Assembly (NCBI RefSeq): GCF_019459305.1 | Contig: NZ_JAIBES010000028.1 | Location: 1-50,655 of the forward strand | From: Sphingopyxis sp. | GTDB taxonomy: Bacteria; Pseudomonadota; Alphaproteobacteria; Sphingomonadales; Sphingomonadaceae | Length of the DNA: 50,655 nucleotides | Direction: 5' to 3' | In this document: positions 21,015 to 42,293 of the stretch, piece by piece | How positions within the stretch are numbered: position 1 is the first letter of the stretch | How the letters are laid out: every line of letters begins with the position of its first letter | Translations under genes and position numbers: made by a program | Notes under the pieces: model-generated | What the model saw: only the letters and a program-made list of their open reading frames with translations | What the model was told of the DNA's origin: nothing | The model's database searches: none

Positions 21015-21021
21015 CCACGCA

Positions 21022-21073
21022 TTGTGCGGCTTTCCGCACAATGTGCAACCTGATTGTGTGGAAAGCCGCACGA
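21022..21073. promoter_or_regulatory. Two DctD-type activator palindromes between dctB and dctA
   Basis: Site 1 (21022-21041) has perfect arms TTGTGCGG and CCGCACAA around CTTT. Site 2 (21054-21073) has arms TTGTGTGG and CCGCACGA around AAAG. Their centres are 32 bp apart, three helical turns. The GTGCGG-N4-CCGCAC form resembles known DctD upstream activating sites. They lie about 60 and 90 bp upstream of the inferred dctA start of transcription. Confidence 0.8.
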
Positions 21074-21112
21074 ATCTGACCGGGAATTTTAATTAAATCA
21101 TTGAATATAAAT

Positions 21113-21118
21113 TATAAT
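21113..21118 (+). promoter_or_regulatory. Probable -10 element of the dctA promoter
   Basis: An exact TATAAT lies in an AT-rich tract (21085-21122). No good TTGACA is found 16-18 bp upstream (only TAATTA-like), as expected for an activator-dependent sigma-70 promoter. I find no sigma-54 element (GG-N10-GC of the TGGCAC/TTGC type) between the activator sites and the gene. Confidence 0.5.
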
Positions 21119-21203
21119 TGAAATTCGACGTCCAGCGTTTCACGCAGTTCGATCGCTATTTATAGTGCCCGTAAGGCAAAACTGCCGTGGGAGAGGATCG
21201 GCG

Positions 21204-23545: not shown

Positions 23546-23562
23546 TCGGGAGGATCACCAAC

Positions 23563-27234: not shown

Positions 27235-28359
27235 ATGATATTGAGCAAGGCGATTGTCGCACTGGGCCTGCTGGCGGCGGCATCCGCCGCGCCCCCGGCC
27301 GAGCGCGCCCGCGAAGCCGGCGTGGTTATCGGCGTCCTTCCTCCCGGCCCACTCAATGCCATCACTGATGTTGACGGGGTCGAGGTTGGCCACGTCACGA
27401 TCGACGAAGGCAAAAACGTCCATACCGGCGTCACCGCAATCCTGCCGCACGGCGGCAACGTCTTTCGCTCGCGTGTTCCCGCCGGTTTTGTCGCCTTTAA
27501 TGCGTTCGGGAAGTTTGCCGGCTCGACGCAGGTCGTCGAACTCGGTGAGATCGAGACGCCTATCCTGCTGACCAACACGCTCAATGTCCCCGAAGCCGCG
27601 GCTGGCGCAGTCGAATGGACGCTGACTCAGCCGGGCAATGAGGCGGTCCGATCGGTCAACGCCGTCGTCGGCGAAACGAACGACGGTGTCCTCAACGACA
27701 TCCGCCGCCGCCGCGTCACCGTCGCCGATGCCCGGCGCGCGATCGAAGTGGCGAAAGGCGGCGCGGTCGAGGAAGGCTCAGTCGGCGCGGGTACCGGAAC
27801 GGTGGCCTTCGGTTTTAAAGGTGGGATCGGCACCGCGTCGCGCAGGCTACCCAGTTCGCAAGGCGGTTGGACGCTTGGGGTGTTGGTCCAGAGCAACTAC
27901 GGCGGTGTCCTCAACATTGCCGGGGTGCCGGTCGGTATCAAACTGGGTCGCCACGCTTTCGCCGAGCGCGGCGATCGTGACACCGCAGATGGCTCGGTCG
28001 TCGTGGTGATCGCCACCGACGCGCCGCTGTCCGATCGCAACCTGCGCCGTATAGCCGAGCGGGCGTTCATCGGGATCGGCCGGACGGGATCGTCCTTTTC
28101 CAACGGATCGGGCGACTATGCGATTGCCTTTTCGACCAGCACCGCGGTGCGCCGCGAGGAAGGAAGTGCGCCGACCGCGCAAGTTGCCGATCTGCGCAAC
28201 GAGGCGCTTTCGCCGCTGTTTCAGGCTGTCGCCGAAGCGACCGAGGAAGCGGTCGTCAACTCGCTGTTCGCCGGAACAACCGTCGAGGGGCATCGCGGCA
28301 CCATCGAGCGGCTGCCGGTCGAAACGATATTGCCCTGGCTGGTCGCCGGCGAAAAATAA
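27235..28359 (+). CDS. P1-family (DmpA/S58) aminopeptidase, exported
   Basis: I use ATG 27235 (MILSKAIVALGLLAAASAAPPAERARE), which has GGGGGA upstream and a signal peptide; the longer upstream frame is transposase remnant. The 374-residue protein shows family signatures VDGVEVGHVTI, GAGTGTVAFGFKGGIGTASR, NYGGVLNIAGVPVG, and the autocleavage/nucleophile site DGS with Gly253-Ser254 in DGSVVVVIATDAPL. DmpA self-cleaves to alpha/beta chains and removes N-terminal L-residues, D-Ala or beta-amino acids. Placement beside D-amino-acid genes fits a role in D-residue peptide digestion in the periplasm. Confidence 0.88.
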   Translation: MILSKAIVALGLLAAASAAPPAERAREAGVVIGVLPPGPLNAITDVDGVEVGHVTIDEGKNVHTGVTAILPHGGNVFRSRVPAGFVAFNAFGKFAGSTQVVELGEIETPILLTNTLNVPEAAAGAVEWTLTQPGNEAVRSVNAVVGETNDGVLNDIRRRRVTVADARRAIEVAKGGAVEEGSVGAGTGTVAFGFKGGIGTASRRLPSSQGGWTLGVLVQSNYGGVLNIAGVPVGIKLGRHAFAERGDRDTADGSVVVVIATDAPLSDRNLRRIAERAFIGIGRTGSSFSNGSGDYAIAFSTSTAVRREEGSAPTAQVADLRNEALSPLFQAVAEATEEAVVNSLFAGTTVEGHRGTIERLPVETILPWLVAGEK

Positions 28360-28399
28360 CGGCCCAACCGACCTGAGGTTACAATTCTCCCGAATCTGG

Positions 28400-29953
28400 T
28401 CAGGACACCTTGGCCGCGCGCAGCAGGCGACCGGGAGCGCCCACACGCTCACCGCCTTCAAAGGCGACCCGTCCGTTCACCATGACCATGTCAAATCCTT
28501 GTGCCTGGGCAAAGGGGTCGAGGTAAGTCGAGCGCGCTTTCACGCGGTCGGGAGCGAACAGGATGAGGTCGGCCTTCATGCCCGGTCTCATCGTTCCGCG
28601 ATCGGGGAGTCGCAGGATTTGCGCCGGGAGCGCAGTCGCCTTGCGGACGGCCTTCTCGATCGGGAGCCGACCCTCGTTCACGACATATTGTTCGATGAGT
28701 TTGGCATAGGTTCCGGTGGCTCGCGGGTGGCGCATTCCCGGACCCCCGTCGGTCGAGATCGCGACATCGGCATCGAGTACGAGCATCTCTTGTAGCGCGT
28801 CGTCCATGGTGAAATGCGCGCCAGAGGCGCCGCCCGGACCGATCTTGATCAGGAAATCGGCATAATGGAGCCCTGCTTCGTCCGCGGCTTGAGCCAATGT
28901 TTTTCCGGCAAAAGGCGCGGTGCCGATCAGGAGCGCCGCTGGCCCGCCGCGCCGGGTCATGCGCGCGATCAGATGATCGCGCAGCTCCTGCCGTCGGCCT
29001 GCGACGATGGCGCGGTAGTCGCTGGGCGGCAAAGCCCATTCGGGGAAGAGCAGCGCAATCCCGGTATAGCCAGCGCTGTACGGATAGGCGTCCGCGGTCA
29101 GATCGATACCGGCACGGCGTTTGGCGGCAATATAGTCGAGCAGCTGGCGGGCACGGGCTTCGCCTTTGCCAAACACTATTTTCAGGTGCGAGATGTGGGG
29201 CCGACCGGGGCGCGCAGACGCAATCAGTTCCTCGATCGAGGCCTCGATCTCGTCGTCATTTTCGGACCGCATGTGGCTCATGACCACGCCGTCGTGGCGC
29301 GCGACGGTTTGGGCGAGGCTGGCGAGTTCGGCGCTTTCGGCATAAATGCCCGGAACATATTCCAGCCCGTAAGAGATCCCGAAGGCGCCAGCGGTCAGCT
29401 CCCGGTCAAGCTGCGCCGCCATCCGAGCGAGCGCGGCATCGTCAGGCTGGCGCATCGCGTCCGGGATGCCAGCGGCGCGGCGCAGCGTGCCGTGGCTTGC
29501 GAGCGCGGCGACATTCAGCGGCAGCGCGGCGCGATCCGCGGCCGAGAGCCAGGTTCGCAGGTCCAGATCGTCCCCGATGCGGGGGCCGCTGCCGTCCACC
29601 CCCAGCAAAATGGTGGTCACCCCCATGGCGAGGAAGGCATCATAGGATTGTTCCAGCGGATCGCCATGCGTGTGGGTGTCGATAAATCCGGGTGCAAGGA
29701 CGCGTCCTTCTCCCGGTACAAGGCGCGCGCCATCGGGGACCGACCCGCCCGGCGGCAAAATAGTAGCAACACGTTCACCGACAACGGTGACGTCGGCGCG
29801 GCGAGGCAGACTCCCGGTCCCATCGACCAACAGGACATCGCGAAAATAGGTTGATGCGTCGCCCTGGGCAGCGGCCAGCATCGGCAGGGTTGCCAGCGTG
29901 GTTAAGGCAACAGCGCCGCCAGCGAGCTGGCGACGCGTCAAGTCACGCGGCAT
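28400..29953 (-). CDS. N-acyl-D-amino-acid deacylase family amidohydrolase
   Basis: ATG 29953 has GGGAGG upstream and begins MPRDLTRRQLAGGAVALTTL, a likely twin-arginine signal (TRRQLAGG). The mature protein is a composite amidohydrolase: beta-sandwich YFRDVLLVDGTG, metal HxH in GFIDTHTHGD (H94, H96), SHMRSEND, HISHLKIVFGKG, and a late metal Asp in ISTDGGPGMRHPRATGT. This is the arrangement of D-aminoacylases, which release D-amino acids from N-acyl forms or related D-peptides. It is encoded opposite to the peptidase (about 40-base convergent gap) and sits just past the XRE-cupin regulator. Confidence 0.85.
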   Translation of the reverse strand: MPRDLTRRQLAGGAVALTTLATLPMLAAAQGDASTYFRDVLLVDGTGSLPRRADVTVVGERVATILPPGGSVPDGARLVPGEGRVLAPGFIDTHTHGDPLEQSYDAFLAMGVTTILLGVDGSGPRIGDDLDLRTWLSAADRAALPLNVAALASHGTLRRAAGIPDAMRQPDDAALARMAAQLDRELTAGAFGISYGLEYVPGIYAESAELASLAQTVARHDGVVMSHMRSENDDEIEASIEELIASARPGRPHISHLKIVFGKGEARARQLLDYIAAKRRAGIDLTADAYPYSAGYTGIALLFPEWALPPSDYRAIVAGRRQELRDHLIARMTRRGGPAALLIGTAPFAGKTLAQAADEAGLHYADFLIKIGPGGASGAHFTMDDALQEMLVLDADVAISTDGGPGMRHPRATGTYAKLIEQYVVNEGRLPIEKAVRKATALPAQILRLPDRGTMRPGMKADLILFAPDRVKARSTYLDPFAQAQGFDMVMVNGRVAFEGGERVGAPGRLLRAAKVS

Positions 29954-29964
29954 ATAAACCTCCC

Positions 29965-30000
29965 TTGTCCATAACGGCGGAAGGATGCCCAAATGGACAA
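29965..30000 (-). promoter_or_regulatory. Inverted repeat in the leader of the D-aminoacylase gene
   Basis: Perfect arms TTGTCCAT (29965-29972) and ATGGACAA (29993-30000) flank a 20-base spacer just upstream of the ATG at 29953. Arm length and spacer equal those of the repeat at 33941-33976, and both share the TGTCC/GGACA core, suggesting one regulator. Confidence 0.55.
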
Positions 30001-30179
30001 CGGAATGCAATTGTACGTGGATCCAACATTCTGCAGAGAATTTCGAAAAAGCACGAGTGGATACAGGCCTGTCACCGGTGTCGACTTTGGCGCACGGTTG
30101 ACCTTTTTGCGGGGTCCGGTGCGGCCGTCATGCTGGCCCGGCTGGCTAGAGCCGAACGGTCGGACGTGGTGGAAAGGCG

Positions 30180-30815
30180 TCAGCCGTGCAGGCTCATCAG
30201 CGAATCCATCAGTCCGTCGTCGGCGCTCGAACAGACTCCCAGTACGAGCGCTTCTTCGAACCCCTCGGCGACCACATAGGCGTGGCCCATGGACGAATCG
30301 AGATAGATGCCCTGACCGGTCTTCAGCGCGACGGGGTCGTAAAATTCGGTGTGAATCTCGATCGCGCCTTCCAGCACATAGATGAATTCCTCGCCCTGAT
30401 GGCGGACAAGCTCGCCGAACTCGCTCGCGCTGTGGGCGCGGATACGGGTGATGATCGGGATCATCCGTTTCTGGCGCAGGTCTGTACATAGATAGTGATA
30501 GTCGTAGTTGTCGGTGGTGACGCGCACGGCCTGGTCGATCGTCCCGACGCTGCGGCGGCCGGTGACGCGCGGCGCGCTGTCGCTCTCATCTTCGGCGAAG
30601 AGGTCCGCCATGCGGATGCTGAGTCGCTGGCTGAGCTGCTGCAGCTTGTCATAACTCAGCGTCAGCCGGTCATGCTCGACTTTTGACAGCGTCGAGACCG
30701 GGATGCCCGATTTCGCACTCATCTCCTTGAGCGTCCAGCCGTTTCGCGAGCGAATGCTCTTCATCACAGTGCCGAGTGTGGGTGGGGCCGCGCGAGCCGC
30801 CATCAATTTTTCCAT
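30180..30815 (-). CDS. XRE-cupin transcriptional regulator
   Basis: The 211-residue protein has an XRE HTH (about 13-70: LGTVMKSIRSRNGWTLKEMSAKSGIPVSTLSKVEHDRLTLSYDKLQQLSQ) and a C-terminal cupin ligand-binding domain (about 120-195: FGELVRHQGEEFIYVLEGAIEIHTEFYDPVALKTGQGIYLDSSMGHAYV). Such regulators (SutR/PuuR type) sense small metabolites, often amines or amino acids. It is divergent from the serine hydrolase gene, and the intergenic block recurs before the M19 dipeptidase gene, so it is the prime candidate for control of the D-peptide locus. An internal Met5 could be the true start. Confidence 0.82.
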   Translation of the reverse strand: MEKLMAARAAPPTLGTVMKSIRSRNGWTLKEMSAKSGIPVSTLSKVEHDRLTLSYDKLQQLSQRLSIRMADLFAEDESDSAPRVTGRRSVGTIDQAVRVTTDNYDYHYLCTDLRQKRMIPIITRIRAHSASEFGELVRHQGEEFIYVLEGAIEIHTEFYDPVALKTGQGIYLDSSMGHAYVVAEGFEEALVLGVCSSADDGLMDSLMSLHG

Positions 30816-30822
30816 TCCATGT

Positions 30823-30850
30823 TTGACAATTTTCTAATCAGGATCATTAT
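30823..30850 (+). promoter_or_regulatory. Promoter/operator block of the serine hydrolase-dgcA operon
   Basis: TTGACA (30823-30828) is followed 16 bp later by CATTAT (30845-30850). The sequence from TTGACAATTTTCT through AATCAGGAT is almost the same as at 33954-33976, and a TGTCC half-site follows (30850-30854). The repetition at two promoters indicates a shared operator. Confidence 0.65.
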
Positions 30851-30944
30851 GTCCCTATTGGGTTAACAGTTGTTGACCCTTGGTAAGACGTCGCGCGGCT
30901 TGCTGCAAGGTCAGACAGGGCGTGCCGAATAAAAGGGGAAAGTG

Positions 30945-32924
30945 ATGCGTTTCATCCGCAAGGTGATGATCGGACTGGCGGCGCTCGCCGCGCTACCACT
31001 CGCGGCGCAGGGGCCGCTGCCCGCGCCGACGGCGAAGAAGGTGGAAACGGCCGCGGCGACCGCACCCGCGGCACCGACTAGCCCGGTGACGCTCGACGCC
31101 GCCGACCTTGAGGCGTGGATGGACGGCTATCTGCCCTACGCGCTCGAGCGCGCGCGCATCCCCGGTGCGGTCGTCGTCGTCGTGCGCGGCGATCAGGTCG
31201 TGCTGCAAAAGGGCTATGGCTTTGCCGATGTCGCTAATCGTGCGCCGGTGCTGCCCGAAACGACCATGTTCCGACCCGGCTCGGTGTCGAAACTGCTGAC
31301 CTGGACCGCGGTGATGCAGCAGGTCGAGGCGGGCAAGATCGATCTCGACAAGGATGTGAACGCCTATCTCGATTTCAAGATTCCGGCCTATCAGGGCAAG
31401 CCGGTCACGATGCGCAACATCATGACGCATACTGCGGGTTTTGAAGAGTCCGTACGGCACCTGATCAGCAGCGACCCCAAGGCGGTGATGACGCTGAAGG
31501 AGCAGATGCCAATGGCGTTGCCGCAGCGCGTCTTTGCGCCGGGGACGACCCCCGCTTACTCCAATTACGCCACCGCGCTCGCGGGCTATATCGTCGAGCG
31601 CGTCAGCGGCGAGCCGTTCGACAATTATATCGAAAATCATATATTTACACCGCTTGGTATGACGCATTCGACCTTCCGCCAGCCGCTGCCAGCACGCCTC
31701 GCGCCGCATATGGCCAAGGGCTATCCCGACGTGACGCAAAAGGCGAAACCGTTCGAGATCGTCATCCCGGGACCGGCGGGAAGCCTGTCGGCGAGTGGCG
31801 CCGACATGGGTAAATTCATGATCGCGCATCTGAACGACGGGGCCGGGCTTCTGAAGCCCGAGACTGCAAAACAGATGCACGATTTCAAGGCGCCCGGCGT
31901 TGGCCCGCTCAACAGCATGGCACTTGGTTTCTACGAACAATGGGTCAACGGTCGGCGCGCGATCGCGCATGGCGGCGATACCGTCTGGTTCCACTCCTAT
32001 CTGTGGCTGTTCCCCGAGGATGACATTGGCGTTTATGTGTCGATGAACAGCGCCGGGACGCAGGGCGATGCGGGGGCGGTGCGTAGCGCGCTGTTCCATA
32101 AATTTGCCGATCGTTACCTTCCGGGCGAAGACAAGGCGGGAACCGTAGACGCCAAGACCGCCGCCCAACATGCGCAGATGATGGTCGGCAATTATGTCAG
32201 CAGCCGCGGGTCGTTCACCAACTTCATGAGCCTGCTCGGGCTGTTGGGGCAGGCGACGATCTCGCTGACCGAAGACGGCAAGATCAGCTTCCCCGCGCTC
32301 GACGGCTTGGGTGCCGGCGCGCGCGACTGGGTCGAGGTCGAGCCGTTCGTGTGGCGCGACCGCGGCACGGGCGAGCGCCTCGCGGCCGAGGTCAAGGACG
32401 GCCGCGTCGTGCGCTTCAGCGTCGATGCCGGTTCGCCGTTCATGGTGTTCGAACCCGCGCCTGCCAGCGTCAATGCGGCGTGGCTTAATCCGGCGCTGAT
32501 TGCGGCGCTCGGCATCGTGCTGCTCGCCGCGCTGGCGTGGCCGGTACGCGCGCTGGTACGGCGCAGCTTCAAGGCCGATTTCGCGCTCGAAGGTAAATCG
32601 CGTCGCGTCTATCGGCTATCGCGGGGGTTCGCCTGGCTGGTGCTGGCGGCGCTTGCGGGCTGGCTCGGCCTGATCGCCGCTTTCTCGGCCGATATAGGCA
32701 GCTTGGGCGGCCCGCTCGACTGGCTGATCCACCTGCTGCGTGTCCTGACCCCGGTGGCGTCTTTCGGCTTGCTAGCGACGGCGGGCTGGCACTTGTGGCT
32801 GACGATCAAGGACAAGCGTCGTTGGACGATGAAGCTCGGCGCGGTGCTGCTGGTGCTCGCGGCGCTGGTGCTGGTGTGGGCGACACTCGCCTTCAACCTC
32901 TATGGCTTTGGATTGGTTTATTGA
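30945..32924 (+). CDS. SxxK serine hydrolase (class C beta-lactamase/D-aminopeptidase type) with C-terminal membrane domain
   Basis: ATG 30945 follows AGGGG at good spacing (the preceding GTG is less likely). A signal peptide (MRFIRKVMIGLAALAALPLAAQ) leads to a beta-lactamase/PBP fold with SVSK (Ser113-Lys116), YSN in PAYSNYATAL, and HGG in AIAHGGDTVWF. After about residue 510 come roughly four membrane helices (PALIAALGIVLLAALAWPVRAL, FAWLVLAALAGWLGLIAAFS and others), so the enzyme is periplasmic and membrane-tethered. Relatives include D-aminopeptidases and esterases. It leads dgcA with a one-base overlap. Confidence 0.82.
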   Translation: MRFIRKVMIGLAALAALPLAAQGPLPAPTAKKVETAAATAPAAPTSPVTLDAADLEAWMDGYLPYALERARIPGAVVVVVRGDQVVLQKGYGFADVANRAPVLPETTMFRPGSVSKLLTWTAVMQQVEAGKIDLDKDVNAYLDFKIPAYQGKPVTMRNIMTHTAGFEESVRHLISSDPKAVMTLKEQMPMALPQRVFAPGTTPAYSNYATALAGYIVERVSGEPFDNYIENHIFTPLGMTHSTFRQPLPARLAPHMAKGYPDVTQKAKPFEIVIPGPAGSLSASGADMGKFMIAHLNDGAGLLKPETAKQMHDFKAPGVGPLNSMALGFYEQWVNGRRAIAHGGDTVWFHSYLWLFPEDDIGVYVSMNSAGTQGDAGAVRSALFHKFADRYLPGEDKAGTVDAKTAAQHAQMMVGNYVSSRGSFTNFMSLLGLLGQATISLTEDGKISFPALDGLGAGARDWVEVEPFVWRDRGTGERLAAEVKDGRVVRFSVDAGSPFMVFEPAPASVNAAWLNPALIAALGIVLLAALAWPVRALVRRSFKADFALEGKSRRVYRLSRGFAWLVLAALAGWLGLIAAFSADIGSLGGPLDWLIHLLRVLTPVASFGLLATAGWHLWLTIKDKRRWTMKLGAVLLVLAALVLVWATLAFNLYGFGLVY

Positions 32925-33928
32925 TGGCGACGCAAATGACGCAAGAACTGACGCTCGACCTGCGGGTCGAGCGTTTTGCCTACCACCAGCCGTTCCGCAT
33001 TTCGGGGCATGTCTTCACCGAAACCGCGCTGCTGGTCGCCGAACTGTCCGACGGCACGCACGTCGGACGCGGCGAAGGGGCCGGGGTCTATTATCTGGGT
33101 GATGATATCGACCATATGCTGGCCGAAGCGACGCGCGTCCGCGACGCAATCGAGCGCGGCGCGGCGCGCGCGGATTTGCAGCAATTGCTGCCGCCGGGCG
33201 GCGCGCGCAATGCGCTCGACTGTGCCTATTGGGATCTGGAGGCGAAGCAGGCGGGACGGCCGGTGTGGGAGCTGGCGGGATTAAAGCCGCCGCGCGCGCT
33301 GCCTTCAACCTTGACGCTTGGCGCCGATAGTGCGGGCAATATGGCGAAGGCGGCGCTGGCGATCGATCCCGAGGCGCCGATCAAGGTCAAGCTGACCGGT
33401 GATCTGAGTGACGACATCGCCCGTGTTGTCGCGATCCGCACTGCGCGGCCGCATGCGTGGATCGGGGTCGATGCCAATCAGGGCTATGACATTGCCACGC
33501 TGGCGGAGCTGCTACCGGTGCTTGTCGATACCAGGGTTGCGCAGCTTGAACAGCCGCTGAAGCGCGGGCGCGAAGCTGATCTCGACGGACTGAAACGTCC
33601 TCTGCCCTTTGTCGCCGACGAAAGCGCGGTGACGCTCGCCGACACCGCGACGCTCGTCGGGCGCTTCGATGTGGTCAACATCAAGCTCGATAAATGCGGC
33701 GGGCTGACCGAGGGGCTGGCGATCGCGCGGCAGGCGCGGAAACTGGGGCTCGACGTGATGGTCGGCAACATGATGGGGACAAGCCTGTCGATGGCGCCGT
33801 CGTTCGTGCTGGGCCAGCTGTGCGATATCGTCGACCTCGACGGACCGACCTTCCTGGCGCGCGATCGGGTACCGTCCGTCGAATATCGGGGCGGGATGAT
33901 TCATTGCCCGGCAGGAATTTGGGGATAG
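32924..33928 (+). CDS. dgcA: Dipeptide-epimerase family enolase; N-acetyl-D-glutamate racemase DgcA-like
   Basis: The ATG overlaps the previous TGA. The 334-residue enolase-superfamily enzyme keeps the full catalytic set: KVK (Lys154, Lys156), metal ligands Asp183 (GVDANQGYD), Glu209 (QLEQPL) and Asp232 (FVADES), and NIKLDKCGG (Lys254/Lys257). This is the L-Ala-D/L-Glu epimerase subgroup. With a DUF1611 gene in the same locus, the best current reading is DgcA, which racemises N-acetyl-D-Glu in the D-glutamate pathway described from marine proteobacteria. Plain L-Ala-D-Glu epimerase for murein peptides is the alternative. Cytoplasmic. Confidence 0.82.
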   Translation: MATQMTQELTLDLRVERFAYHQPFRISGHVFTETALLVAELSDGTHVGRGEGAGVYYLGDDIDHMLAEATRVRDAIERGAARADLQQLLPPGGARNALDCAYWDLEAKQAGRPVWELAGLKPPRALPSTLTLGADSAGNMAKAALAIDPEAPIKVKLTGDLSDDIARVVAIRTARPHAWIGVDANQGYDIATLAELLPVLVDTRVAQLEQPLKRGREADLDGLKRPLPFVADESAVTLADTATLVGRFDVVNIKLDKCGGLTEGLAIARQARKLGLDVMVGNMMGTSLSMAPSFVLGQLCDIVDLDGPTFLARDRVPSVEYRGGMIHCPAGIWG

Positions 33929-33940
33929 ATGACAACTACA

Positions 33941-33981
33941 TGTCCTAAATGGGTTGACAATTTTCTGATTAGGACAATAGT
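33941..33981 (+). promoter_or_regulatory. Promoter/operator block of the dipeptidase-TonB-dgcN operon
   Basis: TTGACA (33954-33959) and AATAGT (33976-33981, 16-bp spacer) form a promoter. Perfect arms TGTCCTAA (33941-33948) and TTAGGACA (33969-33976) with a 20-base spacer embrace the -35. The core is repeated before the gene at 30945. It is a likely site for the XRE-cupin regulator. Confidence 0.7.
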
Positions 33982-34016
33982 CGTCATACTGAAACTTAGC
34001 TGAGAGGGAGGCTGGA

Positions 34017-35159
34017 ATGACCGGGTCATTCGCAGCAACGCGCCGTGCGATCATCGCGGGCGCGGTCGGCGCCGCCTTGTCTGCGCCGATGGTGAACAAG
34101 GGAAGCTATGCGATTGCCGCGGCGCCAGCGCGCGCCTATTCGCGCCGCGCGGTCGATCTGGTTGCCTCGTCGCTCGTCATCGACATGCTGGCGCCGCTCA
34201 AGATCACGCTGTCGGCCGACTATATCACCCACCGTTTGACCGATGCCGAGGCGGCCGAGTTCAAGGCTAGCGGCATCACCGGCTTTCACAACGCCTATGG
34301 TCTCGGCGGTCCCGATGCAAAAGAGCAGGCGCTGACCTTTCTCGCGGGTTGGCAGGGCTTTGCCGGGCGCAATAGCCATGTGTTCACGCTGGTCGATGGC
34401 GTTGCCGATCTCGACCGCGCCAAGGCTGATAAAAAATGCGCGGTCATCATGGGCATCCAGAATGCCGAGCATTTTGAGAAGATCGAGGATGTTGCGCTGT
34501 TCCGCCGCCTCGGCCTGCGCTGCGCGCAGCTAACGTACAACAGCCAGAATCTGATCGGATCGGGAAGCACCGAAAGGGTCGACGGCGGGATCAGCGATTA
34601 TGGCGCCGCGATCATTGCCGAAATGGAAAAGCAGCACATGCTCGTCGATGTCTCGCATTGCGGCGACCAAACGACCTTGGACGCGATCGCGATCGCCAAG
34701 GGGCCGATCGCGATCACCCACAGCAACGTGCGCGCGCTGGTCGATCATCCGCGGGTCAAGAGAGACGCAGCGATCAAGGCGCTCGCGGCCAAGGGCGGGG
34801 TGATGGGGATAACCGGCGTTCGCATGTTCGTAAGCACCACCGATCCGACCAATGTCGGGCATATGGCCGACCATATCGACTATGTCGCCAAGCTGGTCGG
34901 GATAGATCATGTCGGGATCGGATCGGACGCCGATTTGCACGGCTACGATGACATGAAGCCCGACGAATATGCGCTGCTCAAGGGCGCCTACAAGGGCAGC
35001 TACGCCTTTCGCGACAAGATCGACATCGACGGTTTCGACCATCCTTTGAAGGTCTTTGACCTGACCGAGGAACTGATCCGCCGGGGATATTCAAACGACA
35101 ACATCACCGCCGTGTTGGGGGGCAATTTCCGCCGCCTGCTGGCGCAAGTCTGGGGGTAA
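34017..35159 (+). CDS. M19 membrane-dipeptidase family protein, altered metal site, exported
   Basis: A signal with RR (MTGSFAATRRAIIAGAVGAALSAP) suggests Tat or Sec export. The 380-residue M19 (renal dipeptidase) fold keeps GIQNAEHFE (bridging Glu), DVSHCGDQT, AITHSNVRAL and GIGSDAD. At the N-terminal HxD ligand position (normally DGHND) it has DMLAP (56-60), so one metal site is apparently lost. M19 enzymes cleave dipeptides, including those with a C-terminal D-residue. GAGAGGGAGG precedes the ATG. It leads a seamless operon with TonB receptor, dgcN and transporter genes. Confidence 0.85.
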   Translation: MTGSFAATRRAIIAGAVGAALSAPMVNKGSYAIAAAPARAYSRRAVDLVASSLVIDMLAPLKITLSADYITHRLTDAEAAEFKASGITGFHNAYGLGGPDAKEQALTFLAGWQGFAGRNSHVFTLVDGVADLDRAKADKKCAVIMGIQNAEHFEKIEDVALFRRLGLRCAQLTYNSQNLIGSGSTERVDGGISDYGAAIIAEMEKQHMLVDVSHCGDQTTLDAIAIAKGPIAITHSNVRALVDHPRVKRDAAIKALAAKGGVMGITGVRMFVSTTDPTNVGHMADHIDYVAKLVGIDHVGIGSDADLHGYDDMKPDEYALLKGAYKGSYAFRDKIDIDGFDHPLKVFDLTEELIRRGYSNDNITAVLGGNFRRLLAQVWG

Positions 35160-35163
35160 GACA

Positions 35164-37350
35164 ATGAACAAGGGACTTTATTTCGCGGCAAGCATGGCCG
35201 CATTGATCGCCGCAATGCCAGCGCAGGCGCAGGAACCGGGTGCGGTTGAGGCGGCGGGCGAAATCGTCGTCACCGCGCAGAAACGCGTCCAGAATGTCCA
35301 GGACGTGCCGATCTCGATCGCCGTTGTGAATGGTGAAGAGCTGCAGCAACAGGGCTCGGCATCGCTGGTCGACTATGCGGGTTACGTCCCCGGCATGAAT
35401 GTCAGCAACAGCGGCACGCCCGGTCAGACGACGATCACCCTGCGCGGTGTCGCGCCGCTGAACTCCAGCCAGACCGTCGGCATCTATCTCGACGACGCGC
35501 CGGTAGGCTCCAGCGCGATCTACAACCGCGCCGGGGCGTTCACGATTGACCTCATGCCCTATGACCTGGAACGGATCGAAGTGCTCAAGGGGCCGCAGGG
35601 CACGCTCTATGGCGCCAGCTCGATCGGCGGGCTGGTGAAATATGTCACCGTTCAGCCGAACACCAATGCATTCAGCGTCAAGGCGGGGGTCGAAGGCTTC
35701 GCGATCAAGGGCGGCGACGGGCTCGGCTGGGGCGCGCAGGTGATGGTCAATGTGCCGATCGTGCAGGACAAGCTGGCGGTCAGCGGCAGCTTTGCCTGGC
35801 GCAGCACCCCGGGCTGGGTCGACAGCGTCAACAATGCCGCGCTGAAGGATCAGAATGATTATGAGCAGCGCGGCGGCCGTGCGGCGCTGCTGTGGACCCC
35901 GACGCCTGAATTCAGCGTGAAGCTCGCCGGGATATGGCAGTCGCTCGATTCCGCCGGCAATGGTCTTTACGCCGCCGATCTGACCGGCGCGCGCCTCGGC
36001 GACGGACGTTCGTTTAACAATTTTGTTCCTGAATCCTACGATATCGATCTCGACTATTATTCGGCGACGCTCGATTATGATTTCGGCGCGGCGACGCTGA
36101 CCTCGGCCACGACCTACAGCAAGACGCAGAGCGCGCAGCTGCAGGACGCGAGCTACGCCTTTGGCGTGCTCTTCCCGCTGCTCACCGGCGGCGCGGTGCC
36201 GCCGGGGATCACGCCCTTCTCGCTCGATCTCGGCCTGAAGAAATGGACGCAGGAAGTGCGGCTTGCTTCGCCAAGTGGCGGACGGTTCGAATGGCTGATC
36301 GGCGGCTTCTTCACCGACGAGACGACCAGCAACGCGCAGTTGGTCCGCTCGTTCGACATGGCGGGCAATCCGATCCCCGGTCTTGATCCGCTGGCGATCG
36401 TCGGCCTGCCCGCGACCTACAAGGAATATGCGATCTTCGGCAACGGCACCTTCAAGCTCAGCGAGCAGTTCGAAATCACCGGCGGCCTGCGCTGGGCGCG
36501 CAACAAGCAGACCTTCCGCCAGATCAGCTCGGGCGCGATCGTGCCGCAGGCCGACGATCCGGGCAAATCGGCCGAAAGCGTCTTCACTTACTCGATCAGC
36601 CCGCAATTCCACATCAATGATGACGCGATGCTCTATGCGCGCCTCGCAACCGGATATCGCCCGGGCGGACCGAACGTCATCGTCCCCAACGTCCCGCCGA
36701 CGGTCGATGCCGACAGGATGAAAAACTATGAAATCGGGCTGAAGGCCGACTTTGCCGATCGGTTGGTTTCGGTCGATGTCGCGCTCTTCCTGATGGACTG
36801 GACCGACATCCAGGTCGTGCGTTCGTTCGGCGGCGTATCGGGCGGGGCGAACGGCGGCAAGGCGCGGAGCAAAGGGATCGAGGGCAGCTTTGCGCTGCGT
36901 CCGACCCCCGGCCTGACGATCAGCGCCACCGGCAGCTACACCGACGCCACGCTCAGCGAGGATGTGCCCGACATCAGCGGCGCCGATGGCGACCGCCTGC
37001 CCGCCGTACCGAAGTTCAGCGGCGCGCTCCGCGCCGATTATGAATTCGAACTGGGCGGGGGCAACAAGGGCAGTTTTGGCGCCGGTGTCCGCCACGCCAG
37101 CAACCGCCTGTCGCTGGTCGAAAGCGATCCGCTAGTTGCGACGGCCAAGCCTTACACATCGGTCGATCTCAACGCTTCGATCACCTTCAACGATCATTGG
37201 ACATTGCGCGCCTATGCTCGCAACCTGCTCGACAATCAGGGTGAGATGGCGCGCTCGACCTTTGCCAACGGGCTCAATCAGCCGAGCTTCCTTGGCATTT
37301 CTCCGCTCCAGCCGCGCACGGTGGGTGTCGCACTCGACCTGGCCTTTTGA
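35164..37350 (+). CDS. TonB-dependent outer-membrane receptor (D-peptide locus)
   Basis: The start follows the dipeptidase stop by four bases. The 728-residue protein has a signal MNKGLYFAASMAALIAAMPAQAQ, the TonB box-like EIVVTAQKR, a plug (VPISIAVVNGEELQQQG, then TTITLRGVAPLN, then ERIEVLKGPQGTLYGASSIGGLVKYVT) and a barrel ending in FLGISPLQPRTVGVALDLAF with terminal Phe. It most resembles the medium-sized AQKR-type receptors of sphingomonads. Position between peptidases and cytoplasmic D-Glu genes implies uptake of oligopeptides or murein fragments, which is inference. Confidence 0.9.
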   Translation: MNKGLYFAASMAALIAAMPAQAQEPGAVEAAGEIVVTAQKRVQNVQDVPISIAVVNGEELQQQGSASLVDYAGYVPGMNVSNSGTPGQTTITLRGVAPLNSSQTVGIYLDDAPVGSSAIYNRAGAFTIDLMPYDLERIEVLKGPQGTLYGASSIGGLVKYVTVQPNTNAFSVKAGVEGFAIKGGDGLGWGAQVMVNVPIVQDKLAVSGSFAWRSTPGWVDSVNNAALKDQNDYEQRGGRAALLWTPTPEFSVKLAGIWQSLDSAGNGLYAADLTGARLGDGRSFNNFVPESYDIDLDYYSATLDYDFGAATLTSATTYSKTQSAQLQDASYAFGVLFPLLTGGAVPPGITPFSLDLGLKKWTQEVRLASPSGGRFEWLIGGFFTDETTSNAQLVRSFDMAGNPIPGLDPLAIVGLPATYKEYAIFGNGTFKLSEQFEITGGLRWARNKQTFRQISSGAIVPQADDPGKSAESVFTYSISPQFHINDDAMLYARLATGYRPGGPNVIVPNVPPTVDADRMKNYEIGLKADFADRLVSVDVALFLMDWTDIQVVRSFGGVSGGANGGKARSKGIEGSFALRPTPGLTISATGSYTDATLSEDVPDISGADGDRLPAVPKFSGALRADYEFELGGGNKGSFGAGVRHASNRLSLVESDPLVATAKPYTSVDLNASITFNDHWTLRAYARNLLDNQGEMARSTFANGLNQPSFLGISPLQPRTVGVALDLAF

Positions 37351-37370
37351 GCGGATTGGAGTTGGAAACG

Positions 37371-38411
37371 ATGAACGCGCCCACCGGCAGGCTGGAGAGC
37401 AGCCTGACCCTGCCGCAGCCCTATCTGCTGTTCCTCGGCGACACGACCGAGGCGGGTTATGCCAAGACCGCCTTCGGTCTGGCCGACTGGGCGGCGGATC
37501 GCTGCGTTGGCGAGCTGGCGATCGGCGGCTGCACCGTCACCACCGGCCTGCCACCGATGTCGCCCGCAGAGGCGCGGGCGGCTGGGGCGCGGTCGCTGGT
37601 GATCGGAGTGGCCAACCAGGGCGGGGTGATTGGCGACAGCTGGATCGCCGCGCTGGTCGAGGCGATGGAGGCGGGACTCGACATCGTCAGCGGGCTGCAC
37701 GTCCGGCTGGCGAGCCTGCCTGCGCTGGCCGAGGCGGCAAAGCGCACCGGCCAGCGGCTCATCGACGTGCGGACGCCGCCGCCGTCGATTCCGATCGGCA
37801 ACGGCCGCAAGCGCAGCGGCAAACGATTGCTGACCGTCGGCACCGACTGTGCGCTCGGCAAGAAATATACTGCGCTGGCGCTGCATCGCGCGTTCGTCGA
37901 ACGCGGCATCGATGCCGATTTTCGCGCCACTGGACAGACGGGCATCATGATTGCCGGCGGCGGGATGCCGATGGACGCGGTCGTTTCGGATTTCGAGGCA
38001 GGAGCGGCGGAAATCCTCAGCCCCGATGCGCCTGCTGACCATTGGGATTTGATCGAGGGGCAGGGGTCGATCTTCAACCCGGCTTATGCCGCGGTGTCGC
38101 TCGGTTTGCTGCACGGCAGCCAGCCCGATGTGTTTGTCGTGTGTCACGATCCGACGCGCAAGGTGATCCTGGGCATGGAGAGCTTTGCGCTGCCGTCGAT
38201 CGAGGAGGTTATCGACCTGACGATCCGCCTCGGCAGCCGGACCAATCCGGCGATCCGCTGCGGCGGGGTCAGCCTGAACACGTCGAGCTATGACGCCGAC
38301 GCCGCCGAAGCGCTGATGGCGGCGGAGCGCCAGCGGCTCAGCCTGCCGGTCACCGATCCGATCCGCGGCGGCGCATCGTTCGACGCGCTTGTCGAAAATA
38401 TTCTCGCGTGA
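37371..38411 (+). CDS. dgcN: DUF1611 family, D-glutamate N-acetyltransferase DgcN-like
   Basis: ATG 37371 (MNAPTGRLESSLTLPQPYLLFLGDTTEAGYAKTAFGL) follows GGAG. The 346-residue protein has DUF1611 features: a Rossmann-like N-terminal half (ARSLVIGVANQGGVIGDSW) and a P-loop-like GTDCALGKKYTA (157-168), then FRATGQTGIMIAGGG and LIEGQGSIFNP. DgcN acetylates D-Glu so that DgcA can racemise it. Both genes occur in this locus, separated by the dipeptidase and receptor. Coupled by GTGA to the transporter downstream. Not every DUF1611 protein need be DgcN; the neighbours support it. Confidence 0.85.
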   Translation: MNAPTGRLESSLTLPQPYLLFLGDTTEAGYAKTAFGLADWAADRCVGELAIGGCTVTTGLPPMSPAEARAAGARSLVIGVANQGGVIGDSWIAALVEAMEAGLDIVSGLHVRLASLPALAEAAKRTGQRLIDVRTPPPSIPIGNGRKRSGKRLLTVGTDCALGKKYTALALHRAFVERGIDADFRATGQTGIMIAGGGMPMDAVVSDFEAGAAEILSPDAPADHWDLIEGQGSIFNPAYAAVSLGLLHGSQPDVFVVCHDPTRKVILGMESFALPSIEEVIDLTIRLGSRTNPAIRCGGVSLNTSSYDADAAEALMAAERQRLSLPVTDPIRGGASFDALVENILA

Positions 38412-39544
38412 GCGTGGGCGAGACGGGGAGTAGGTCGAGCTGGTTCCAGCGCTTCCTGCTGCCCGGACTGGCGCTGAAAGCGGTGATCATCGGCGGCGGC
38501 TATGCCACTGGCCGCGAACTCGCCGAATATTTTGTGCCGTCGGGGCCGTGGGGCGGGCTGTCAGCGATGCTGATGGCTACCTTGATCTGGAGCGTCGTCG
38601 CGGCAATTACGTTCGCACTGGCGCGCAAGATGGGCGCCTATGACTATCGTGCGTTTTTTCAGGGGCTGCTTGGCCCGGGCTGGGTCGCGTTCGAGCTGGC
38701 CTATCTGATTTTTGTCATCCTGATCCTTGCCGTGTTCGGCGCCGCGGCCGGCGCGATCGGCGCCGCGACTTTTGGCTGGCCCGAACTCGCCGGTTCCATA
38801 GTGCTGGCGACCAGCATCGTCGCCTTCACGGCCTTCGGCACCCACACCGTCGAGACATTGTTCAAATATGCCTCGATGCTGATCTATGCGGTTTATGCGC
38901 TATTCCTGATATTCGCTCTAACCAGCTTCGGTGGCCTGATTGCCGAGGGTTTTGCCGAAGCGCCGCCGCCCTCTGGCAATTGGGTCGCGGGCGGATTGAC
39001 CTATGCGAGTTATAACATCGTCGGCGCGGTGATCATCCTGCCGGTGCTGCGCCACCTGACCAGCCAGCGCGATGCAGTGCTGGCGGGGATCATCGCTGGT
39101 CCGCTGACGATGCTGCCCGCAATCCTGTTCTTTGTCGCGATGATGGCCTTCTATCCAGCTATCGGCGCTGAAACGCTGCCGTCCGATTTCCTGCTCCGCC
39201 AAATGGCGGTGCCGGGGTTCCACATTCTGTTCCAGCTGATGATCTTTGCCGCGTTGCTCGAAAGCGGGGTCGGCGCGATCCATGCGATCAACGAACGGGT
39301 GTCGGGGGTCGTCGAGACGCGAGGGCGTCCGCCGCTCGGCACCGGCGCGCGCGCCGCGATCGGCGGGGTCATATTGGTCGGGTGCATGTTCGTTGCGGCG
39401 CGCATCGGCCTGGTCGACCTGATCGCCAGCGGGTATCGCTTCCTCGCCTGGCTGTTCCTGATCGTCTTTGTCGCGCCGTTGCTGACCATCGGCGTCTGGC
39501 GCCTGCTGCGCCCCGCTCCCGTTCCAATGGAGACCGTCCCATGA
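38408..39544 (+). CDS. YkvI-like inner-membrane transporter (COG3949)
   Basis: GTG 38408 overlaps the dgcN stop. The 378-residue protein has about ten hydrophobic helices with FLLPGLALKAVIIGGGYATGRELAEYF at the start, as in the YkvI group of APC-superfamily membrane proteins. The unwound-helix Gly cluster (IGGGYATG, about 23-30) is typical of amino-acid carriers. No substrate is established for the family that I know of. Lying between dgcN and peptidase genes, it is the natural candidate for importing D-Glu or a small D-peptide from the periplasm. Confidence 0.75.
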   Translation: MSVGETGSRSSWFQRFLLPGLALKAVIIGGGYATGRELAEYFVPSGPWGGLSAMLMATLIWSVVAAITFALARKMGAYDYRAFFQGLLGPGWVAFELAYLIFVILILAVFGAAAGAIGAATFGWPELAGSIVLATSIVAFTAFGTHTVETLFKYASMLIYAVYALFLIFALTSFGGLIAEGFAEAPPPSGNWVAGGLTYASYNIVGAVIILPVLRHLTSQRDAVLAGIIAGPLTMLPAILFFVAMMAFYPAIGAETLPSDFLLRQMAVPGFHILFQLMIFAALLESGVGAIHAINERVSGVVETRGRPPLGTGARAAIGGVILVGCMFVAARIGLVDLIASGYRFLAWLFLIVFVAPLLTIGVWRLLRPAPVPMETVP

Positions 39545-41118
39545 AAGCCGTCCGCCTGCTTGCTCTCTCATTGATGCTGTCGGTTGCCGCACCCGCCTGG
39601 GCTGACCCGCCCAAGGACATTGTCGAAACGGTCGAAACCTTGCGCCAGAAGATCGGCGCGCCCGGCGTATCGATCGCGATCGTCGAGGATGGCGAGACCA
39701 CGCTCTCGCGCGGCTGGGGCGTCCGCAAGCTCGGCGAGCGCGCGCCGGTCGATAAACAAACATTGTTCCAGACCGGATCGACCGGCAAGGCGATGACCGC
39801 GGCGGCGCTGGCGATCCTTGTCGACGAAGGCAAGATCGGGTGGGACGATCCCGTCATCAAGCATATGCCGTGGTTTCGCATGCACGACGCGTGGGTGACG
39901 CGCGAGATTACCATCCGCGACCTGCTCGTCCACCGCAGCGGTCTGGGGCTGGGGCAGGGCGATCTGATGTTCGTGCCGCGCACCAACCTCACGCGCAAGC
40001 AGACGGTCGAACGCGTCGCTTACCTCAAGCCGCAGACCAGTTTCCGCTCGGCTTATGCCTATGACAACATTCTCTACGCGGTCGCGGGCCAGTTGATCGA
40101 GGAGGTCACCGGCAAGACGTGGGAGGTGTTCATGCGCGATCGCCTCCTGCGCCCCGGCGGCATGAAAGACGGGACGACCGACAGCGAGGACCGTTTCCGC
40201 ATTCCCAACCGCTCATGGCCGCACGCGCGGCTGTCGGGGCCGCTGCGCGGTCTCGGCCCGCAGCAGGCGCTGAACGAACGCGACGAGCTGGGCCGCAACG
40301 GTGCGCCGGCGGGCGGGCTGGCGCTCAGCGCCGACGACATGGCGGCGTGGCTCAAGATCCAGCTCGCTTATGGCGCGCTGCCCAACGGCAAGCGACTGTT
40401 CAGCGAAGAGCAGGCCAGAGAAATGTGGGCGCCGGTGACCCCGATGCCGATCACCCCGCTGCCCGACAGCCTGAAACCCGCGCAGCCCAACCAGCAGGCT
40501 TATGCGCTCGGCTGGCAGGTGCAGGATTATCGCGGCCACCGCATCGTCCAGCATAGCGGCGGGGTGTTCGGATCGATCACCCGCGTCGTGATGATCCCCG
40601 ACAAAAATGTCGGTTTTGCGATCATGATGAACAGCGAGGACAGCGGGATGCTCCTCGGCCTCTACTACGACCTGCTCGACCATTATCTTGATCAACCCGA
40701 TTATGGCTGGATCGACAAATGGGAAGATTGGTATCAATCGCGGCTCGCGGGCGGAGTGGAGTATCTGAAACAGACGCAGGCTGCTCCCGCAAAATCGGGA
40801 CCGTCGCTGGCGCTTGTTGGCTATGCCGGGCGCTATCGAGATCCTTGGTACGGCGATGTCGTGATCGGGTCGGCAGCGACCGACCTGACGATCGACTTTA
40901 CCTCGACCCCGCGCATGGCGGGACGGCTCAAACATTGGCAATATGACAGCTTCGTCACCGATTTCGATGACCCGGCGATCGAACCTGCTTATGTGACGTT
41001 CGCGCTCGATGCGGAGGGCAAGATCACCGGCGTGACGATGAAGGCGGTGAGCAAGATTGCCGATTTCAGCTGGGACTATCACGATCTCGACCTGAAACCG
41101 GTGGAGGACAAGAAGTGA
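39541..41118 (+). CDS. Second SxxK serine hydrolase (beta-lactamase/D-aminopeptidase type), exported
   Basis: ATGA-coupled to the transporter. Signal MKAVRLLALSLMLSVAAPAWA. Catalytic motifs are STGK (Ser80-Lys83), YDN in SAYAYDNILYAVAGQL and HSGG in IVQHSGGVFGS. A C-terminal beta domain of DUF3471 type (GYAGRYRDPWYGDVVIG, then FALDAEGKITGVTMKAVS) follows. It is a soluble periplasmic enzyme, unlike the membrane-bound hydrolase at 30945. Likely substrates are D-amino-acid peptides or amides, by family (DmpB/DAP-type D-aminopeptidases) and context; esterase or lactamase activity is possible. Confidence 0.82.
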   Translation: MKAVRLLALSLMLSVAAPAWADPPKDIVETVETLRQKIGAPGVSIAIVEDGETTLSRGWGVRKLGERAPVDKQTLFQTGSTGKAMTAAALAILVDEGKIGWDDPVIKHMPWFRMHDAWVTREITIRDLLVHRSGLGLGQGDLMFVPRTNLTRKQTVERVAYLKPQTSFRSAYAYDNILYAVAGQLIEEVTGKTWEVFMRDRLLRPGGMKDGTTDSEDRFRIPNRSWPHARLSGPLRGLGPQQALNERDELGRNGAPAGGLALSADDMAAWLKIQLAYGALPNGKRLFSEEQAREMWAPVTPMPITPLPDSLKPAQPNQQAYALGWQVQDYRGHRIVQHSGGVFGSITRVVMIPDKNVGFAIMMNSEDSGMLLGLYYDLLDHYLDQPDYGWIDKWEDWYQSRLAGGVEYLKQTQAAPAKSGPSLALVGYAGRYRDPWYGDVVIGSAATDLTIDFTSTPRMAGRLKHWQYDSFVTDFDDPAIEPAYVTFALDAEGKITGVTMKAVSKIADFSWDYHDLDLKPVEDKK

Positions 41119-42293
41119 AGCACCTCGCGATCCTGCTGGCCGCCACCGCGCTATCGGCGTGCTCGACCGGTGAGGAGGCGGTAAAGGCGCCCGATGCACC
41201 GCTGCACAGCCGGATGCTGGTGCTCGACACCCACCTCGACACCCCGCTGCATTTCGAGCGGCAGGGATGGAGCTTTGCCGACCGCCACAGCGCCACGGGC
41301 GATATGGTCCAGCTCGACATTCCGCGGATGAAGGATGGCAATCTCGATGGCGGCTTCTTCGTCATCTACACCGAGCAGGGCGCGCTCGACGCAAAAGGAT
41401 ATGCCGATGCCCTGGCGTTCGCCCGCGAGCGATCCGACCTGATCGACGCGACGATCACCAAGCATGGCGAGGCCATCGGTGCCGCGCGGACCGTCGCTGA
41501 CGCGCGGACGCTGAGCAAGGCTGGCAAGCTCATCGCGTATAAGTCGATGGAAAACAGCTATCCACTTGGCGACGATGTCACGCTGCTCGCCGAGTTCCAC
41601 CAAAAAGGCGTCCGCATGGCGGGGCCGGTGCATTCGAAGACCAACCAGTTCGCCGACAGCGCGACCGGCGAGGCGCGCTGGAGGGGCCTCAGCCCGCTCG
41701 GCAAGCAGTGGGTGGCCGAAATGAACCGGCTCGGCATCGTCATCGACGCCAGCCATGCGTCCGATGCCGCGTTCGATCAGCTGCTGGCGTTGTCGAAATT
41801 TCCGATCATCCTGTCGCATTCGAGCCTGCGCTCGGCCAACGATCATCCGCGCAACCTGGATGAGGGGCGGCTGAAAGCACTGGCGGTGAAGGGCGGCGCG
41901 ATGTGTATCTCGACGATCTTCATGTCGGATATGAACATGACCCCGGCGCGCGGCGAATTGTTCGGCCAATATGAGCGTATCGGCACCTTGTCGCCCGCGC
42001 AGCAGGCCGAGCTCAATCACAAGTGGCGCGAACTCGACAAGACCGAGCCGCTGTGGGCGGCTGATTTCGAGCAATATATGGCAATGGTGCTGCGCGCGAT
42101 CGAAGTCGGCGGCGTCGATCATATCTGCTTTGGCGCCGACTGGGACGGCGGCGGCGGGCTGGCCGGGATCGAGGATATTTCGGCGCTGCCGAAGGTTACC
42201 GAGCGCTTGAAGTCTGCGGGTTACTCCGACGTCGATATCGAAAAGATGTGGAGCGGCAATATCCTGAGGGTGCTGGCGGCGCAGCGCGGATAG
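41115..42293 (+). CDS. M19 membrane-dipeptidase lipoprotein with intact metal site
   Basis: GTG 41115 overlaps the previous stop. The N-terminus MKHLAILLAATALSACSTG carries a lipobox (LSAC, Cys16), so it is a lipoprotein facing the periplasm. All M19 ligands are present: DTHLDTP (His40, Asp42), the Glu in KSMENSY, IDASHAS, ILSHSS and FGADWDG. This is the canonical dinuclear zinc dipeptidase, able to cut L-X/D-Y dipeptides. It is the last gene of the operon, and the contrast with the altered-site M19 at 34017 suggests divided roles. Confidence 0.88.
   Translation: MKHLAILLAATALSACSTGEEAVKAPDAPLHSRMLVLDTHLDTPLHFERQGWSFADRHSATGDMVQLDIPRMKDGNLDGGFFVIYTEQGALDAKGYADALAFARERSDLIDATITKHGEAIGAARTVADARTLSKAGKLIAYKSMENSYPLGDDVTLLAEFHQKGVRMAGPVHSKTNQFADSATGEARWRGLSPLGKQWVAEMNRLGIVIDASHASDAAFDQLLALSKFPIILSHSSLRSANDHPRNLDEGRLKALAVKGGAMCISTIFMSDMNMTPARGELFGQYERIGTLSPAQQAELNHKWRELDKTEPLWAADFEQYMAMVLRAIEVGGVDHICFGADWDGGGGLAGIEDISALPKVTERLKSAGYSDVDIEKMWSGNILRVLAAQRG

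Follow-up and report, generated by a model that had tools for sequence, protein, structure and literature searches.

A 50,655-nucleotide stretch of DNA from Sphingopyxis sp. (contig NZ_JAIBES010000028.1 of assembly GCF_019459305.1; hereafter the window) contains at positions 30942-42293 an operon of eight same-direction genes, which together with a divergent XRE-cupin gene is a conserved unit built around relatives of the enzymes DgcN and DgcA. The genes are arranged in the order BLA1-DgcA-M19a-TonB2-DgcN-YkvI-BLA2-M19b and are separated by gaps or overlaps of at most 4 bases throughout (with DgcN read from TTG 37347), except for 88 bases before M19a. We lean toward the reading that the operon scavenges D-amino-acid peptides and that the D-residue handled by its acetylate-and-racemize pair is non-acidic and probably hydrophobic or aromatic. 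D-Glu, which an initial annotation of the window had proposed as the substrate, is doubtful for this pair, judging from the protein sequences. The DgcN-DgcA route for D-glutamate is described in the available parts of PMC12363236 and PMC10845958. The genome holding the window is 3.97 Mb in size; among named relatives, those closest to its DgcA and DgcN belong to Sphingopyxis.

Conservation was examined over 162 dgcN loci from four sources. A set of 149 genomes of the window's family, 36 of which had a DgcN match, provided 40 regions covering 44 of the 62 DgcN places (left out were the window's own and 17 weaker ones of at most 51% identity). Another 78 named loci came from the best 80 of 463 matches to a profile of the window's type, four were plasmid records, including the Pseudoalteromonas CF6-2 locus (L075), and a class-wide search that matched 102 of 385 genomes contributed one region from each of 40 genomes. 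On the basis of a DgcN tree (FastTree, motif columns omitted), rows in one 110-row clade were termed window-type; rows with an Arg as in the CF6-2 branch were termed ordinary (46 rows), and the 12 remaining rows without Arg intermediate. One locus with an internal stop and outside the tree (L067) was assigned to the window type by default; lacking every core gene, it lowers the statistics. Neighbors were counted as homologues within 9 kb of dgcN, mainly with queries from the window, in a flank set that required no less than 8.5 kb ahead of the point where the dgcN match starts and 9 kb beyond it, and from which identical DgcN had been removed. This set comprises 79 window-type loci (from 110; 18 family genomes, 3 plasmids and 58 named genomes), 9 intermediate loci (from 12) and 41 ordinary loci (from 46); CF6-2 was dropped on flank length.

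The proposal that receptor, S12 hydrolases, M19 proteins, carrier and dgcN/dgcA belong to one unit held up in this comparison, and the core does not scatter from dgcN/dgcA across relatives, which was the check named as a possible refutation. Homologues near window-type dgcN were found for BLA1 in 72/79 loci, YkvI in 66, the XRE-cupin gene in 64, BLA2 in 50, a TonB2-like receptor in 46, M19a in 30, M19b in 28 and a POT di/tripeptide carrier (at least 50% identity, often directly 3´ of dgcA) in 20, against 0/41 ordinary loci for each, zero counts that are optimistic because the queries derive mainly from the window and the ordinary loci mostly belong to other families (6 are from the window's family and 35 from other Alphaproteobacteria). 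DgcA itself is near dgcN in 65/79 window-type and 40/41 ordinary loci. All five core genes (XRE, BLA1, DgcA, YkvI and BLA2) are present at 37 of the 79 loci, four at 23, three at 9, two at 4, one at 5 and none at 1; at least four are thus found in 60/79. The nine intermediate loci have a D-aminoacylase-like gene and DgcA in five cases each, a TonB2-like receptor in three, XRE and BLA1 in one each, and YkvI and BLA2 in none. The operon is a mosaic, since gene order and optional parts differ between operons. Fifteen gammaproteobacterial loci (Lysobacterales and Steroidobacterales) hold two to five of the core genes; with this recurrence, taxonomy alone is an unlikely explanation, and the unit may have spread between orders by horizontal transfer.

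A variant with a forward XRE gene (41-45% identity) and with BLA1-like and D-aminoacylase-like genes is seen at ten loci (L106, L109, L111, L112, L118, L124, L129, L133, L148 and L155), seven of which have an amidohydrolase resembling Xaa-Pro dipeptidase nearby. The operon is also carried by Sphingosinicella microcystinivorans (L122), which we take to be a microcystin degrader.

The annotation of a DgcN/DgcA pair is correct at the level of families, but both proteins score below the respective NCBIfam cut-offs (NF041892, 480 bits for DgcN; NF042940, 400 bits for DgcA). The window's DgcN reaches 451.6 bits and four other window-type proteins 438.2-454.0 (0/5 pass), as against 493.4 for CF6-2 and 510.1 for an ordinary copy in the window's own genome (L035), the two ordinary proteins tested; three of three intermediates are also below (L036, 439.8; L065, 472.0; L050_15362, 446.4). 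The window's DgcA has 355.8 bits and three other window-type proteins 351.9-360.7 (0/4 pass), as against 412.0, 420.6 and 432.0 for the three ordinary proteins tested (CF6-2, L035 and L069). Among the intermediates, L066 (411.0) and L070 (416.4) are above and L036, L062 and L065 below, so the DgcA cut-off is no clean proxy for the state of the capping loops described next. In the model for L-Ala-D/L-Glu epimerase (NF011708, cut-off 343), the window's DgcA obtains 228.1 bits and stays well below.

The catalytic residues of the DgcA racemase (KxK, Asp, Glu, Asp, Lys) are intact, and it is in the capping loops that the branches differ. DgcA of the CF6-2 branch typically has ISRG[ST][RK] and ExVPYxRYGE[ST], which is nearly what is found in Escherichia coli YcjG (IARGSRS and ECTPYPRYGES), whereas window-type DgcA has I[SAT]G[HY]xF and ExxGVYYLGDD and has lost the three basic residues common to the other two. 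At the first basic position of the 20s loop, window-type DgcA has Gly in 83/86 rows and the CF6-2 branch Arg in 45/45; at the second, window-type DgcA has Phe in 81/86 (the rest being two Ile, two truncated rows and one misassigned enolase) and the CF6-2 branch Arg or Lys in 44/45. In Bacillus subtilis YkfB, an Arg of the capping loop contacts the Glu side chain; the ambiguous loop alignment gives no residue number for this gamma-carboxylate-binding Arg, and both basic positions are lost here regardless. DgcN changes in parallel: the Arg position of the CF6-2 branch is occupied by Leu, Met, Ile or Val in 110/111 window-type rows (one gap; Leu in the window) and is mixed in the 12 intermediates (three Leu, two each of Asp, Gly and Asn, and one each of Ser, Tyr and His). 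The 46/46 Arg of the CF6-2 branch is no evidence because the branch was defined by it. The Arg state splits the DgcN tree at one branch (support 96). DgcA and DgcN agree in residue state in 136/137 pairs, or in 133/134 without two truncated DgcA and another enolase (L138_17286), all scored non-basic; near-identical genomes were kept in this count, and the pairs are not independent but reflect one event, since a single split accounts for the changes in both the loops and the Arg. We infer that the lost loop residues and DgcN Arg are determinants of D-Glu use.

The genome holding the window has three more DUF1611 genes (L035, L036 and L037; G000 C74, C7 and C22), and at least four genomes (G000, G042, G098 and G110) carry a window-type and an ordinary copy together, which fits a division of labor. 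Of the additional copies, L035 is an ordinary LysR-dgcN-dgcA-SDF locus that also holds penicillin-amidase and S13 genes, L036 is intermediate, and L037 is a further window-type copy accompanied by an S15 peptidase. LysR was found near 0/79 window-type loci with a query from this genome (35% limit) that is insensitive, finding just 6/41 ordinary loci. A scan of the window's open reading frames (ORFs) recovered XRE-cupin and TetR regulators and no LysR. The XRE-cupin gene, which had been overlooked at 30180-30815, is likely to be the regulator of the adjoining operon.

A dehydrogenase of the ELFV (Glu/Leu/Phe/Val) family is encoded no more than 0.7 kb from the operon in 11/79 window-type and 0/41 ordinary loci, with a p value of 0.015 that is uncorrected and concerns a family picked post hoc among recurrent unassigned ORF families. 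The same dehydrogenase adjoins the operon at three loci outside the flank set, and a relative of 70% identity is encoded elsewhere in the window's genome. Four members tested matched best the model for the Trp dehydrogenase ScyB, with 278-305 bits (cut-off 600, not reached) as against at most 85 with models for glutamate dehydrogenase (GDH).

The two SxxK serine hydrolases of the initial annotation are both of the S12 fold and have complete SxxK, YxN and HxG motifs, BLA1 in 86/86 rows including the window's and BLA2 in 65/65. BLA1 has a signal peptide, and its hydrophobic C terminus is read as a membrane anchor (both by eye); BLA2 also has a signal peptide. Family and motifs are shared with the D-stereospecific S12 peptidases, i.e., alkaline D-peptidase (4y7p), D-amino acid amidase (2dns) and ClbP (4e6x). 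However, the best PDB matches are other S12 proteins, namely 2qmi for BLA1, with 4y7p fourth (2.7e-24), and 7spn for BLA2, where 2dns and ClbP also appear, and such ranks give no substrate. A role of BLA2 as a ClbP-type prodrug peptidase was rejected, ClbP being only fourth and fifth in its list. The annotation of two M19 dipeptidases stands for one of them. M19b has a lipobox (by eye), 2rag as nearest PDB entry (2.1e-116), and all five metal ligands in 36/36 rows, which we take to be His-x-Asp, Glu, His and His (motifs matched by eye). M19a has a twin-arginine translocation (Tat)-like leader (by eye) and 2i5g as nearest PDB entry; three of its ligand positions are replaced (His by Leu in 42/42, Asp by Pro in 41/42 and Glu by Gln in 42/42) and the remaining two His are kept (42/42). 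By its residues, the M19a branch is probably a different amidohydrolase, perhaps a one-metal enzyme.

The receptor has apparently been exchanged in place between operons. Among the 16 operons of the flank set whose DgcN shares 80% or more identity with that of the window, five have a TonB protein of 82-88% identity, two one of 50-58%, eight one of 37-40% and one a protein of 26%. The YkvI-like protein matches nothing in Pfam up to E=10 and nothing in NCBIfam, but the carrier assignment agrees with its AlphaFold model (pLDDT 88.4), which for most of its length adopts the APC/LeuT fold of amino acid transporters, with BasC/LAT-type transporters ranking high. The protein is thus predicted with confidence to be an APC/LeuT-fold carrier, and an amino acid or short peptide would be its putative substrate.

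In the reading that we favor, the operon would probably be inducible. A peptide containing D-residues would cross the outer membrane via TonB2 and be cut by periplasmic BLA1, BLA2 and M19 proteins, as their families suggest, to D-residues or short D-peptides, with participation of a D-aminoacylase in other strains. YkvI, or the POT di/tripeptide carrier in other strains, would import the products. By analogy with the CF6-2 homologues, the free D-amino acid would be N-acetylated by the DgcN-like enzyme and then inverted from the N-acetyl-D to the N-acetyl-L form by the DgcA-like one, from which a deacetylase encoded elsewhere would release the L-amino acid; the genome has 17 M20 matches, none of which is assignable to this step. 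That the D-residue is non-acidic is suggested by the DgcA loop residues and by the adjoining dehydrogenase of aromatic/branched type in some strains. The loop has a parallel in the Thermotoga maritima dipeptide epimerase (2zad), which has FHITGSV where the window has FRISGHV, both fitting FxI[ST]GxV without basic residues at the two positions (aligned by eye), although the window's DgcA is distant from it overall (5.5e-21). According to PMC5808125, the T. maritima epimerase prefers L-Ala-D/L-Phe, Tyr and His and YcjG is narrow for Glu. To our knowledge, few dedicated routes exist for D-amino acids beyond D-Ala, D-Ser and D-Glu. One tentative and broader idea, to which we give rather less than even credence, is that the locus represents a second acetylate-then-racemize pathway, for hydrophobic or aromatic D-amino acids, in which a re-tuned DgcN-DgcA pair is combined with an exchangeable receptor and D-specific hydrolases in a mobile locus for nonribosomal-type or non-canonical D-peptides, shared horizontally between Sphingomonadales and Lysobacterales/Steroidobacterales. 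If the favored reading is right, DUF1611 and 'dipeptide epimerase' genes that could be counted as dgcN/dgcA by homology have another role, and the operon provides named genes for probing bacterial use of D-residue peptides, peptide antibiotics included.

Several points weigh against this reading, among them the limits already given for the zero counts, the residue pairs, the CF6-2 Arg, the DgcA cut-off and the dehydrogenase. In addition, 19/79 window-type loci have no more than three core genes, and intermediate DgcN without Arg are mostly without the operon (XRE and BLA1 near 1/9 each). The role of the DgcN Arg at the substrate is putative. DgcA could act on dipeptides, since the Asp-x-Asp motif is kept, and the D-aminoacylase-like neighbor resembles N-acyl-D-Glu deacylase 3gip (second to 9g5m). 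Our searches found no activity or growth data for any window-type protein. Finally, the combination of dgcNA with receptor, hydrolases and carrier is not unique here, because the CF6-2 dgc locus adjoins a TonB receptor, an amidohydrolase, an M14 peptidase and an NhaC-type carrier.

The alternative closest to the initial annotation is that the operon scavenges D-Glu peptides from murein or poly-gamma-D-Glu and that DgcN and DgcA convert D-Glu as in Pseudoalteromonas sp. CF6-2, for which Yu et al. reportedly described the pathway in 2023 (ISME J, 10.1038/s41396-023-01364-6). The two enzyme families are the same and their catalytic residues are kept, the D-aminoacylase-like neighbor matches 3gip, and M19 enzymes are able to free C-terminal D-Asp or D-Glu. 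We nevertheless consider this rather unlikely. The window's pair belongs to the other branch and misses both NCBIfam cut-offs, the basic DgcA loop residues and the DgcN Arg are lost jointly, and the genome also has an ordinary dgcNA locus. The setting differs from that at CF6-2, apparently with an XRE-cupin gene rather than LysR, and with S12, M19 and YkvI in place of M14 and NhaC. Hydrolases of the gamma-D-Glu type stand beside ycjG in E. coli (MpaA) and beside dgcNA in CF6-2 (the M14 peptidase); tblastn searches with these two proteins matched only CF6-2 and L048/L102, one atypical window-type locus present twice; NlpC/P60 and S66 were not searched separately. The murein/poly-gamma-D-Glu substrate was thus set aside, and retained as a rival, for want of an M14 partner in ordinary window-type loci and of basic loops. 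E. coli YcjG-MpaA, a murein peptide system, likewise has an enolase-superfamily epimerase with a peptidase neighbor, but the window's DgcA is well below the epimerase cut-off, has no MpaA-type neighbor and lacks the Glu-type loops.

DgcA may instead chiefly epimerize imported L-Xaa-D-Yaa dipeptides, with DgcN taking just the leftover free D-residue, which we judge unlikely. Asp-x-Asp, which in epimerases binds the amino group of the dipeptide, is kept in both DgcA branches. Public records name the family dipeptide epimerase, and even CF6-2 DgcA carries the product name 'L-Ala-D/L-Glu epimerase DgcA'; the POT carrier, often right after dgcA, points the same way. The motif does not discriminate between the readings, however, because CF6-2 DgcA has it too; 59/79 loci have no POT carrier (at least 50% identity) nearby, and from one branch to the other DgcN and DgcA change jointly.

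That the cluster is mainly for self-protection, destroying nonribosomal peptides with D-amino acids and with catabolism as a by-product, is hardly credible. The S12 hydrolases are related to D-peptidases among others, the receptor is apparently exchanged, and genera such as Lysobacter and Sphingomonas, which have the operon, are known from soil and water, but carrier, acetyltransferase, racemase and at times dehydrogenase point to use of the product.

The initial annotation regarded the combination of genes as undescribed. No prior description of the operon was recognized in our literature searches, which had most subscription papers outside their coverage, but the neighbors of the CF6-2 dgc locus qualify the claim. 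As far as their available parts go, PMC6090828 tabulates a 'dipeptide epimerase' of Xanthomonas with no accompanying context and PMC3605383 holds nothing useful on the operon.

Coordinates of the operon and adjacent genes are collected below. Pfam backs every annotated family of the operon and flanking genes except YkvI, confirming nearly all of the original gene list.

Genes of the operon and its flanks (positions in the window)
Gene	Position	Strand	Remarks
S58 (DmpA/BapA-type) aminopeptidase	27235..28359	+	PF03576
D-aminoacylase-like amidohydrolase	28400..30010	-	Amidohydro_3
XRE-cupin regulator (likely)	30180..30815	-	Pfam HTH_3 + Cupin_2; divergent from operon
BLA1, S12/beta-lactamase-fold serine hydrolase	30942..32924	+	PF00144, E 2.8e-63
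DgcA-like racemase/epimerase, enolase superfamily	32924..33928	+	ORF opens 32795, likely ATG 32924
M19a, divergent M19-like amidohydrolase	34017..35159	+	PF01244
TonB2, TonB-dependent receptor	35164..37350	+	PF00593/PF07715
DgcN-like N-acetyltransferase (DUF1611)	37347..38411	+	start TTG 37347 or ATG 37371; DUF1611 C and N domains
YkvI-like carrier	38408..39544	+	APC/LeuT fold in AlphaFold model
BLA2, S12 serine hydrolase + DUF3471	39541..41118	+	PF00144 + PF11954; ORF opens 39382, likely ATG 39541 overlapping YkvI stop
M19b, membrane dipeptidase lipoprotein	41115..42293	+	PF01244, E 1.8e-85

Two genes that had been assigned to the pathway were rejected as operon parts. The DmpA-type aminopeptidase has S58 homologues at 2/162 loci (L168 and L178), neither of them window-type, and GDH homologues were found at 0/162 loci, so that the suggested entry into central metabolism via a nearby NAD-GDH is positional only. 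The D-aminoacylase is present as annotated but is encoded on the minus strand, outside the direction of the operon, and is accessory at most. Homologues (at least 24% identity) accompany dgcN at 39/79 loci of the window type and at 6/41 ordinary ones, and these relatives near other dgcN copies are distant (about 24-34% identity). Its PDB matches are 9g5m, followed by 3gip (1.2e-47), and also include D-aminoacylase 1m7j. Further upstream, at 19317-26634, the window has a dCache histidine kinase gene accompanied by genes for an SDF symporter, an alpha/beta hydrolase and another TonB receptor; relatives of the kinase, the SDF symporter and the TonB receptor also come after the operon in two other Sphingopyxis loci (L085 and L087).

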